A program made the position numbers and the translations under genes. Under the pieces are notes generated by a model. The model was not told the DNA's origin and ran no database searches. It worked only from the letters and a program-made list of their open reading frames with translations. A stretch of DNA of 64,000 bases from Sphingobium sp. Leaf26 (GTDB lineage: Bacteria > Pseudomonadota > Alphaproteobacteria > Sphingomonadales > Sphingomonadaceae): assembly GCF_001421665.1 (NCBI RefSeq), contig NZ_LMKV01000001.1, positions 541,038 through 605,037 of the forward strand, in the 5' to 3' direction. This document shows, one piece after another, positions 53,980-56,000 of this stretch. The stretch's first letter is position 1. Each line of letters opens with the position of its first letter.

Positions 53980-54174
53980 GAAACCCGCATAGCCCGGCCT
54001 GTACGACTTTGCCAAGCAAGGGAATGATGATCGGGGCAAAGCGGGCATTTTAACCTTTGCGCCAATCGCCGTCCCATCGCGGCACAGGCGCAAATGCAGG
54101 GAGGAAAGAATAAGGTTTTTCGGCTAAGAGCCAACGGGACGGGCGACGGCGGGTTGCCATTTTACAGGATTGGC

Positions 54175-55161
54175 ATGCGGTTGCTGGCGCAAATGCGAGG
54201 GTGGAAAGGGCATGGGGCGATTCTTGCGATCGCGCTGCTGCTGCTCGTGGCGCCGCGCCTCATCACCGCCGCGCCCCTCGACATGCTGGGCGGCGAACAG
54301 GATGCCGCCCATGCCGACCCGTCCGAGGTGTCGGCGCAGAATTTCCCCGGCTCCGCCTTCTTCTATGCGCAGGGCGCGTTCGATCCGGTTCCGGGCGTTG
54401 CCACGGTGCAAAGCGAACATGTGCTGGGGCTGGACGAAGCGAAGGCCGCGCCGGCGATGGTCTTTCGCGGGATGACCGGCGTGGACAGCTACCGTGCAAT
54501 CAACTGCCTGACATCGGCCATCTATTATGAGGCCGCCAACGAGCCGGACGACGGCCAGCGGGCGGTTGCGCAAGTGGTGCTGAACCGGGTGCGCAGTCCG
54601 CTCTGGCCCAACACGGTCTGCGGCGTCGTCTATCAGGGGTCGGAACGGACCGACTTTCGATGCCAGTTCACTTTCAGCTGCGACGGCGCCATGGCGCGGA
54701 TGCCGGCGGCGGCGGCCTGGGTGCGGGCGCGGCGCGTGGCCGAACAGGCGCTTGCTGGACAGGTCTATGTGCCGGTCGGCCTGGCGACCCATTATCATAC
54801 GCTGGCGGTACGTCCAGAATGGTCGTCCAGCCTTCAGGCGGTGGCGGTAATCGGCGCGCATATCTTCTATCGCAATCCTGGGTTCAACGGCACGCCCGCC
54901 GCCTTCCGCATTCCCTATCTGGGACGGGAGACGATTTCAGGCCCGGCGCGTACCAGTTGGCCCGCCAGGCCCGTCGTACCCCTGGAAACGCTTGCCCCCG
55001 CTTATGTCCCGCCAGCCGGCATGCCCCTATCCGCCACCCCGTCCCAGGCCATGCCGCCCGTCGGATGGACACCCGCACCCCGGCCGCAACCGGCCGATGA
55101 TGGCCTGCCGGAATCCACCATCCGGCCGGAATATCGCAATACGGGCCGCCCCCTTACCTGA
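54175..55161 (+). CDS. Cell wall hydrolase (SleB-like)
   Basis: From ATG 54175 the 328-residue protein has an N-terminal hydrophobic segment (about 15-32), probably a signal or anchor. The hydrolase domain follows with A-I-Y-Y-E-A-A-N-E-P, the hydrolase_2 (SleB) signature with catalytic Glu, and R-C-Q-F-T-F-S-C-D-G and A-T-H-Y-H-T. The C-terminus is Pro-rich. It would cleave peptidoglycan glycan strands. AGGA five bases upstream supports the start; an ATG at 54094 is followed by GGAGGAAAG inside the frame and looks less likely. Confidence 0.82.
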   Translation: MRLLAQMRGWKGHGAILAIALLLLVAPRLITAAPLDMLGGEQDAAHADPSEVSAQNFPGSAFFYAQGAFDPVPGVATVQSEHVLGLDEAKAAPAMVFRGMTGVDSYRAINCLTSAIYYEAANEPDDGQRAVAQVVLNRVRSPLWPNTVCGVVYQGSERTDFRCQFTFSCDGAMARMPAAAAWVRARRVAEQALAGQVYVPVGLATHYHTLAVRPEWSSSLQAVAVIGAHIFYRNPGFNGTPAAFRIPYLGRETISGPARTSWPARPVVPLETLAPAYVPPAGMPLSATPSQAMPPVGWTPAPRPQPADDGLPESTIRPEYRNTGRPLT

Positions 55162-55225: not shown

Positions 55226-55256
55226 AAAAAAAGCATTTAAAGAAATGCGTTTTTTT
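55226..55256. terminator. Bidirectional intrinsic terminator
   Basis: AAAAAAAGCATTT and AAATGCGTTTTTTT form a hairpin around AAAG. The A-run and T-run on its flanks let it work in both directions. It follows the cell wall hydrolase gene by 65 bases and isolates the small RNA locus. Confidence 0.85.
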
Positions 55257-55266
55257 GGCAGTTGCG

Positions 55267-55292
55267 GGAACCGATCCGGGTCGCGACGGGTT
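55267..55292 (+). promoter_or_regulatory. EcfG-type (general stress) promoter for the small RNA
   Basis: GGAAC at 55267-55271 and GGTT at 55289-55292 are 17 bases apart. This fits the GGAAC-N16/17-(c/g)GTT consensus of alphaproteobacterial EcfG sigma factors. The predicted start, near 55298, falls just before the first stem-loop. Confidence 0.55.
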
Positions 55293-55297
55293 CTACA

Positions 55298-55394
55298 ATT
55301 CGGATAGCAAATCTTTTGCCCCCCGCTCTTGCTATCCACAAAATATGAGCCCGGAATGCTTCCCCCCCCGACGCATTCCGGGCTCAGAATTTTT
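55298..55394 (+). ncRNA. Probable stress small RNA with two poly-C-loop hairpins
   Basis: Two perfect stem-loops follow each other. GGATAGCAA/TTGCTATCC (55302-55310, 55329-55337) has an 18-base loop containing GCCCCCCGC. GAGCCCGGAATGC/GCATTCCGGGCTC (55347-55359, 55373-55385) has a loop with eight Cs. AGAATTTTT follows, which could end transcription. The loops are complementary to purine-rich ribosome sites. No protein is encoded. The layout (stress promoter, about 97 nt, tandem C-rich loops) recalls alphaproteobacterial stress RNAs such as Rhodobacter CcsR-type RNAs and Caulobacter GsrN in concept; homology is not claimed. Confidence 0.55.
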
Positions 55395-55437
55395 CCGGGG
55401 CAGATTTTCCCTTGAAATCATTATTCTTTCCGGCTGC

Positions 55438-55462
55438 GGAACGTATTCTGGCAGCGCGGGTT
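55438..55462 (+). promoter_or_regulatory. EcfG-type promoter for the entericidin gene
   Basis: GGAAC at 55438-55442 and GGTT at 55459-55462 are 16 bases apart, again the EcfG consensus. Transcription would start near 55469, giving a leader of about 56 bases. The leader contains GACGGCAATGCCGTC, a perfect 6-bp hairpin. Confidence 0.6.
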
Positions 55463-55524: not shown

Positions 55525-55653
55525 ATGACGAAGAAAATCCTGGCTGCCGTGCTGCTCACAGGTTCGCTGATGGTCGCTGCATGCAACACGGTCGAGGGCG
55601 CGGGCCGCGACGTGCAGAGCGCTGGCAAGGCCGTGGAAAAAAGCGCGAACTAA
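55525..55653 (+). CDS. Entericidin-like small lipoprotein
   Basis: The 42-residue product starts M-T-K-K-I-L-A-A-V-L-L-T-G-S-L with lipobox V-A-A-C, and the mature peptide N-T-V-E-G-A-G-R-D-V-Q-S-A-G-K-A-V-E is the entericidin A/B pattern. Entericidins are small outer-membrane-associated lipoproteins induced on entry to stationary phase in Escherichia coli. GAGGAG seven bases upstream fixes the start. It has its own EcfG-like promoter and terminator, so it is monocistronic. Confidence 0.88.
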   Translation: MTKKILAAVLLTGSLMVAACNTVEGAGRDVQSAGKAVEKSAN

Positions 55654-55692
55654 GCGCTACGGATTTACCGTTTACTACCCCCTCCCTAGCAT

Positions 55693-55724
55693 GGCCCGCC
55701 CGTCAAACGGCGGGCCTTTTTTTT
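55693..55724 (+). terminator. Rho-independent terminator of the entericidin gene
   Basis: GGCCCGCC (55693-55700) pairs with GGCGGGCC (55709-55716) around CGTCAAAC and is followed by eight Ts. Confidence 0.92.
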
Positions 55725-55797
55725 GGAGAGTGGAGAATGACGATGCGTCGGGCCGATGGTTTTCGGTCAGAGGTGCATTTGAGACCACCCTGTAGCC

Positions 55798-55909
55798 GTT
55801 CCCCAGCGAAAGCTGGGGTCTCAGGCGGCGTTGGAAGGCGGCGAGCCGTCTCGCGCCATCCGTTTACGCAGCGTTCGCCTGCCTGAGATCCCAGCCTTCG
55901 CTGGGATGA
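55798..55909. repeat. Palindromic intergenic repeat, family C (CCCAGC arms)
   Basis: CCCCAGCGAAAGCTGGGG with TCTCAGGC, and GCCTGAGA with TCCCAGCCTTCGCTGGGA, form nested arms around GGCGGCGAGCC. It occupies most of the 347 bases between the entericidin gene and tatC; the remainder shows no gene. Confidence 0.75.
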
Positions 55910-56000
55910 CTGCATGTTGAGAACGCGATCTGAAAGCCGACAGTCCCCGTCTCACGCATTCAGATGCCCCATATCCACTGCGCCTGCTGAACCGGAAGCC

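Follow-up and report, generated by a model that had tools for sequence, protein, structure and literature searches.

A putative EcfG-type small RNA with two C-rich hairpin loops, conserved among sphingomonads

The locus and its predicted RNA

The DNA analyzed here, referred to as the window, is a stretch of 64,000 nt from Sphingobium sp. Leaf26. Within it, an EcfG-type promoter is followed by a predicted small RNA of two hairpins, and the stretch lies between a bidirectional intrinsic terminator, situated 3′ of a cell wall hydrolase gene, and a separate EcfG-like promoter which precedes an entericidin (EcnA/B) gene (Table 1). Besides cell wall hydrolase and entericidin, TatC was found among the gene neighbors by Pfam searches of the window. 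This setting agrees with a preliminary description made from the sequence alone, and the promoter, the two perfect hairpins, their C6 and C8 loops and the terminal T-run listed there were all read from the sequence at the positions claimed. Concerning the stem lengths, 9 bp is correct for hairpin 1, while the second stem comprises 14 bp instead of the 13 bp reported.

Table 1. Features of the locus, in coordinates of the 64,000-nt window.
Feature	Position	Strand	Basis and remarks
Cell wall hydrolase gene	54094–55161		PF07486; upstream neighbor
Bidirectional intrinsic terminator	55226–55256	.	A7-GCATTT-AAAG-AAATGC-G-T7, read from sequence; 3′ of the hydrolase gene
EcfG-type promoter	55267–55292	+	GGAAC (55267–55271), 17-base spacer, GGTT (55289–55292); sequence and conservation
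Predicted small RNA, approx. 95–98 nt	55298–55395	+	Covariance model match and fold; start inferred 6–7 nt past the −10 box
Hairpin 1	55302–55337	+	9-bp stem, 18-nt loop; proposed main pairing seed
Hairpin 1, arms	55302–55310 with 55329–55337	+	GGATAGCAA pairs with TTGCTATCC
Hairpin 1, C6 of the loop	55319–55324	+	Conserved loop core UGCCCCCCGCU
Hairpin 2	55346–55386	+	14-bp stem; intrinsic terminator, possible second seed
Hairpin 2, arms	55346–55359 with 55373–55386	+	TGAGCCCGGAATGC pairs with GCATTCCGGGCTCA
Hairpin 2, C8 of the loop	55362–55369	+	
Terminator T-run, T5	55390–55394	+	Read from sequence
Separate EcfG-like promoter	55438–55462	+	GGAAC-N17-GTT before the entericidin gene; genome place C1:596475–596499
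Entericidin (EcnA/B) lipoprotein gene	55525–55653	+	PF08085, E = 1.4e-9; neighbor, outside the RNA

Some further structured elements were seen in the window. A terminator 3′ of the entericidin gene (55666–55731), with CCUCCCU ahead of it, gave a weak mmgR/suhB match in Rfam (21.9 bits, cut-off 41), and at 55795–55915 a long imperfect palindrome around GTCATCCCAGCGAAGGCTGGGATCTCAGG, for which Rfam gives microRNA matches below threshold, resembles a dispersed repeat. At gathering score, Rfam recognizes nothing in the window except a glycine riboswitch aptamer (RF00504, 27569–27668 on the minus strand, 65.7 bits).

Fold, covariation and promoter conservation

The predicted RNA (55298–55395) folds with −41.3 kcal/mol compared to a mean of −18.1 kcal/mol for shuffled sequences (z = −7.9). 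None of 200 shuffles was as low, bearing out the earlier remark that such stems are unlikely by chance. Two covariance models were applied: R1, which was built from an alignment of 30 copies (A2), and a second model, R2. R2 matches the window at 55299–55392 with 103.3 bits. For R1, the RNA is the sole strong match in its own genome (118.2 bits); further matches were the opposite strand at the palindromic terminator (32.3 bits) and a place on contig C32 (18.7 bits). R2 gave an additional match on contig C9 (L068; 26.9 bits, E = 0.0135), without a promoter by eye. The matches on C9 and C32 were taken as chance.

In A2, 99.8% of the paired cells are kept and both sides have changed at four of 23 pairs. 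A further set (A3) comprises 37 copies gathered with blastn and the covariance model, of which 28 belong to other genera within the family, and shows such changes at 15 of 23 pairs. The largest alignment (A4) consists of the window and 84 loci matched by R2, i.e., 85 copies in 83 distinct rows; here 99.0% of the cells are paired and both-side changes occur at 14 of 23 pairs, including 11 of the 14 pairs of the hairpin 2 stem, where it has to be considered that both A3 and A4 were aligned to the structure of the model, which favors pairing counts. In total, 245 cells of A4 have changed on both sides compared to 60.7 in shuffles, and 0 of 500 shuffles reached these values; kinship among the copies inflates this count, but the effect is nonetheless large. 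When partners were slid as a control, only three to five pairs with both-side changes were obtained. One A4 copy (L164) ends at a contig edge before loop 2 and is counted in the pairing and promoter figures, but excluded from figures on unpaired probability and length. The preliminary description had named a lack of compensatory base changes in relatives as a finding which would speak against its candidate; such changes are abundant, and comparison of the sequences indicates that the RNA structure is under selection. A possible inner pairing of hairpin 1 (GCAAA with UUUGC) was dropped, since it is impossible in copies that carry GCGACC there.

The promoter reads GGAAC-N16/17-NGTT in 83 of the 85 A4 loci, and the other two carry CATT behind a 16-base spacer. 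Among the NGTT copies, 56 have a spacer of 16 and 27 a spacer of 17 bases, with CGTT (62), GGTT (13), TGTT (6) or AGTT (2) as −10 box, and the gap between this box and the first RNA base of the model is 6 nt in 82 of 83. Information content amounts to 1.75–2 bits at the five GGAAC/GTT positions shared by both spacer lengths and at the neighboring position −27, to 1.1 bits at two blurred −35 positions and to 0.85 bits at the first −10 base. In the spacer it is 0.70 at the first base and 0.04–0.44 in the rest; thus, the boxes are kept while the spacer drifts. All of CGTT, GGTT, TGTT and CATT are named as EcfG −10 boxes in the portion of a Sphingopyxis granuli study used here (PMC7083833).

The promoter is also present in 78 of 78 loci which were found by blastn or covariance model, independent of any loop pattern (L001–L060, L069–L088, L237 and L238, minus the repeats L031, L071, L073 and L079). 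The weak matches L061–L068, L239 and L240 were excluded from this set, and some of its genomes recur by name in A4. Over the own genome, GGAAC-N17-GTT was found 71 times compared to 151 times for the reversed control and is, hence, not enriched; this pattern is the 16-base-spacer form, which fits the entericidin promoter and not the 17-base-spacer promoter of the RNA itself. As the pattern alone proves nothing, its conservation at this particular spot is the evidence. Promoter and RNA are conserved together, and the promoter is of EcfG type as judged by its motif. Of the general-stress small RNA proposed originally, a discrete RNA gene behind an EcfG-type promoter is upheld by comparison, namely by covariation and by a promoter kept together with the RNA.

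Distribution and relation to known RNAs

Using blastn, the RNA was detected in 35 of 61 genomes: 35 of the 37 from its genus, the genome of the window among them, and none of the 24 from other families of the order. A covariance search of sphingomonad genomes, as suggested in the preliminary description, was conducted with R1 and found the RNA in 68 of 199 genomes of the family, representing 40 of 96 genera (E up to 0.1, strict filters, weakest matches not checked singly); with these filters, none was found in the other 56 genera sampled. R2 matched 86 of 296 genomes of the order, all within the own family (E up to 0.01, again with the weakest matches not checked singly). Over 385 genomes of the class, seven matched R2, two in the family and five weakly outside of it (E from 6.4e-5 to 0.034). 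The latter five have no GGAAC-GTT promoter by eye, though C-loop hairpins occur in some, and were taken as unrelated or convergent. In another family of the class, L063 (G382:C15:30660–30753) is a two-hairpin RNA-like stretch with loops of C7 and CCUCCCCC (36.2 bits) and no EcfG box by eye, possibly a convergent or distant C-loop RNA.

Within the genus, two diverged copies (L237, L238) adjoin CysK and TatC genes; both retain the promoter and an intact UUUGCCCCCCGC core, and the base changes in their stems compensate each other. In four other members, the RNA was not recognized: G027 and G033 gave no match, G203 and G808 only unrelated matches of 22.6 bits.

Further, named genomes were scanned with a loop-only pattern (loop 1 plus four bases of the 3′ arm, without 5′ arm or promoter), which yielded at least 119 loci, assigned by hand, on the basis of their record titles, to sphingomonads, unplaced organisms and other groups. 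Among the loci listed, at least eight of nine stem pairs together with a promoter GGAAC-N15–18-NGTT/NATT are present in 81 of 83 sphingomonad loci, and both stem and promoter in three of four unplaced ones (MAGs of Alphaproteobacteria or Proteobacteria). Of 32 listed loci in other taxa, four attain eight pairs by chance, and the promoter is absent from all 32. R2 matches the window and, among the matches listed, 84 of the 87 sphingomonad or unplaced loci, while the 32 loci from other taxa and the failing unplaced locus gave a single match of 18.9 bits (E = 0.048), likewise among matches listed. Named carriers among the matches listed are Sphingobium, Sphingomonas, Sphingomicrobium, Sphingosinicella, Stakelama, Sphingorhabdus, Parasphingopyxis and Rhizorhapis.

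Over the RNA, no family of Rfam 15 attains its gathering score, either in the window or in 10 relatives; in the preliminary description, too, it had not been recognized as a named family. Up to E = 1, four matches were obtained in the 10 relatives, all below the cut-offs. A sub-threshold Scr3202 match covers the RNA in L040 (37.3 of 52 bits). In the window, ar14 (RF02344) matches over the whole RNA, with 27.3 bits compared to a cut-off of 58.8, and ar14 is not among the matches up to E = 1 in the 10 relatives; membership in this family was rejected on both grounds. The RNA does resemble ar14/NfeR1, the “cuckoo” RNAs, in being an alphaproteobacterial sRNA with repeated hairpins and C-rich loop motifs. 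However, it has two hairpins, an unbroken run of C6–C8 and an EcfG-type promoter, whereas ar14 RNAs are described, in the parts of the sources used, with three hairpins each carrying CCUCCUCCC, and NfeR1 with a sigma-70 promoter (PMC10746234, PMC7143759).

The hairpin 2 alone recalls ErsA/Pseudomon-1 (RF01719), which likewise has a C-rich loop on a long GC-rich stem, but its 21.3 bits are far under the cut-off of 50 and only this one hairpin is matched. The CcsR RNAs have C-rich loops. Together with the CIN1 loci of Rhodobacter, they are comparable as stress-linked alphaproteobacterial sRNAs filed with the cuckoo RNAs. In contrast to CcsR1–4, which according to the sections consulted arise by processing of a joint transcript that includes a DUF1127 gene and is driven by an RpoHI/RpoHII promoter (PMC10253847), the sphingomonad RNA is single, has its own EcfG-type promoter and adjoins no DUF1127 gene.

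The closest counterpart is GsrN of Caulobacter crescentus, with which the RNA shares an EcfG/SigT-type promoter motif, a length of about 100 nt, an exposed 5′ C-rich loop (six C in GsrN) and a 3′ intrinsic terminator. Unlike GsrN, it has a second C-run in the terminator loop, and its neighbors are entericidin and tatC instead of the ecfG-nepR-phyR locus, which is typical for GsrN with the exception of C. crescentus itself. Erythrobacter litoralis, an outgroup in the GsrN work, is a relative of the sphingomonads. According to the part of the GsrN study drawn on here, BLASTn found GsrN only in Caulobacteraceae, further homologs in Rhizobiaceae and others were predicted by position, promoter and expression, and E. 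litoralis has no apparent gsrN-like gene (PMC5869019). The same part reports that the GsrN loop pairs with the katG leader and raises KatG, as shown by compensatory mutation, and proposes pairing with G-rich mRNA stretches (PMC5869019), which is also proposed for the sphingomonad RNA. A katG site of the GsrN type was not found for the latter: inspection by eye of approx. 220 nt around and before the katG start showed no stretch of four consecutive G. GsrN is further marked by cleavage to a stable 5′ form and by stabilization of the full-length RNA through Hfq. By its anatomy, the sphingomonad RNA would work like GsrN; the two are likened by description, and membership in one family is unproven.

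No such RNA of sphingomonads was found among the open-access papers listed, as judged by titles and starts of abstracts. A term search in the main text of two sphingomonad EcfG studies (PMC6599016, PMC7083833) revealed no sRNA named beyond one cited title. That title, a 2018 study on SuhB, an sRNA of Sphingopyxis granuli, could contain the RNA as an unnamed transcript. We rate the RNA, which is absent from the public RNA family library Rfam, as a new family within a known kind, the EcfG-driven sRNAs with C-rich loops.

Proposed working and competing explanations

For PhyR, NepR and EcfG, the alphaproteobacterial general stress response has been mapped well. Its RNA arm has, in the literature covered, been worked out for GsrN of Caulobacter only (PMC5869019, as far as used here). 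The same genome contains the PhyR-NepR-EcfG core: NepR, PhyR (PF22029, PF22233 and response regulator), an ECF sigma factor, which also matches the PhyR-type sigma domain, and an HWE/HisKA_2 kinase lie side by side on contig C12. As the RNA is located on contig C1, it is not near this ecfG-nepR-phyR locus.

Taken as a whole, the locus very probably encodes a real small regulatory RNA of sphingomonads that is switched on by the general stress regulator. In its specific form, we consider it likely that this is the gene of a trans-acting sRNA of approx. 95 nt, which is transcribed by EcfG-bearing RNA polymerase and whose C-rich hairpin 1 core pairs with G-rich stretches of mRNAs. Stress would free EcfG through PhyR and NepR, EcfG would read the promoter, and transcription would start near 55298 and end at hairpin 2. 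The unpaired core of hairpin 1 could then base-pair with G-rich mRNA stretches and alter translation or stability of these mRNAs, as GsrN does in Caulobacter, and the C-run of the terminator loop may act as an additional, less strict seed. Stress-dependent transcription, the pairing, its targets and the direction of regulation are inferred. As a conserved EcfG-type RNA across many sphingomonad genera, it would constitute a single deletable gene with a defined seed, by which RNA control of stress survival in sphingomonads becomes directly testable.

The two loops were compared among the copies. In 78 of 78 loci, the C-run of loop 1 is unbroken inside a UGC(6–8)GC core (C6 in 41, C7 in 36, C8 in one), and the flanking bases are as fixed as the run itself. 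These loci are the freer evidence, since the constancy of loop 1 in A4 exists by construction, the search pattern fixing this loop. Both C-tracts are open in the predicted fold, with mean unpaired probabilities over 84 copies of 0.89 for loop 1 and 0.98 for loop 2. The longest C-run of loop 2 varies from 5 to 12 in the 84 complete A4 copies and is C8 in the window. CCUCC is found in loop 2 of 60 of the 85 A4 copies, one of which ends before this loop, and is absent from loop 2 of the window itself. In three near-identical Sphingobium copies (L014, L017, L019), loop 2 has runs of 9, 9 and 11 C, a difference that suggests strand slippage. A further-reaching reading, in which a widespread EcfG-dependent sRNA forms the RNA arm of the sphingomonad general stress response, its near-frozen loop 1 serving as seed while the slipping C-run of loop 2 adjusts or broadens the range of G-runs and ribosome sites it can reach, is possible, but we regard it as rather doubtful.

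The prediction of targets from complementarity, also suggested earlier, gave no conserved target in a crude search. The full 15-nt complement with up to two mismatches has 10 sites in the own genome, including the antisense of the RNA itself, compared to 12 for the reversed control, and the 13-nt complement GAGCGGGGGGCAA is present in that genome solely as the RNA’s own antisense. Across 37 genomes of the genus, GAGCGGGGGGCAA was found exactly at 12 other sites in 23 genomes, compared to seven sites for the reversed control in all 37. These sites are scattered without a shared conserved leader, save for one locus that two genomes share in identical form and a third in partly similar form; one site falls, by eye, in a pilin-like coding stretch.

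One of the competing explanations is an anti-Shine-Dalgarno RNA of the cuckoo/ar14/CcsR kind, which would block many ribosome sites; the preliminary description had suggested that the RNA may repress many mRNAs, as C-rich loops can pair with Shine-Dalgarno sequences. The frequent CCUCC in loop 2 and the ar14 match below the cut-off, which spans the whole RNA, would fit this, but ar14 does not recur in the 10 relatives, the loop 1 run is never broken in the 78 loci, its core is complementary to G-runs rather than to AGGAGG, and loop 2 of the window lacks CCUCC. The earlier suggestion was not borne out in these points, and the explanation appears improbable. Since the effect of GsrN on katG is activation, a repressor of many mRNAs is also no safe default for the sphingomonad RNA.

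Slightly less probable still is a decoy, i.e., C-rich loops which titrate an RNA-binding protein or a G-rich sRNA instead of acting on mRNAs. Two C-tracts in open loops of the predicted fold, bases beside the loop 1 run that are as fixed as the run, and the failure to find a conserved mRNA target are in line with it. On the other hand, the target search was crude, and GsrN, with the same type of promoter and loop, acts by mRNA pairing according to the part of its description used (PMC5869019).

A trans-acting RNA as favored here has also to be distinguished from a cis-acting leader or attenuator of entericidin, in which read-through from 55267 would place the hairpins on the entericidin mRNA and let them regulate it. 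The neighbors of 84 named loci among the matches listed were surveyed by tblastn (E up to 0.01). In 58 of these 84, entericidin follows the RNA within 450 nt, and both genes have EcfG-like promoters, as a leader would suggest; yet an EcfG-like promoter intervenes between RNA and entericidin in 55 of the 58, and hairpin 2 looks like a strong terminator. Further, in 17 of the 84 loci listed a tatC match was found downstream and entericidin was not, while RNA and promoter are kept. A protein as short as entericidin could be missed by tblastn at this threshold, but in 13 of these 17 loci fewer than 60 nt separate the end of the RNA from the tatC match, leaving too little room for an entericidin gene. 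Therefore, the RNA does not seem to depend on entericidin, and the leader was judged quite unlikely on the basis of this survey. The remaining nine of the 84 loci listed have neither entericidin nor tatC, four of them with less than 1 kb of contig left.

That the stretch is no RNA gene at all, being tandem terminators or part of a short reading frame, is hardly credible: a 74-codon ORF from TTG does cross the region, and the ends of hairpin 2 and tatC are convergent in many loci, but hairpin 1 lacks a T-run while its loop is conserved, the promoter is conserved as well, the length differences of 84 copies from the window are 0, 1 and 2 modulo 3 in 30, 25 and 29 cases, so that no reading frame is kept, and none of the seven small ORFs of the stretch, the 74-codon one included, matches a Pfam family, for which reasons of length and Pfam result a short protein was rejected. 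As a minor observation on the region downstream of the RNA in one relative, L052:1841–1907 gave a sub-threshold match to the Bradyrhizobiaceae sRNA BjrC68 (26.6 bits, cut-off 39).
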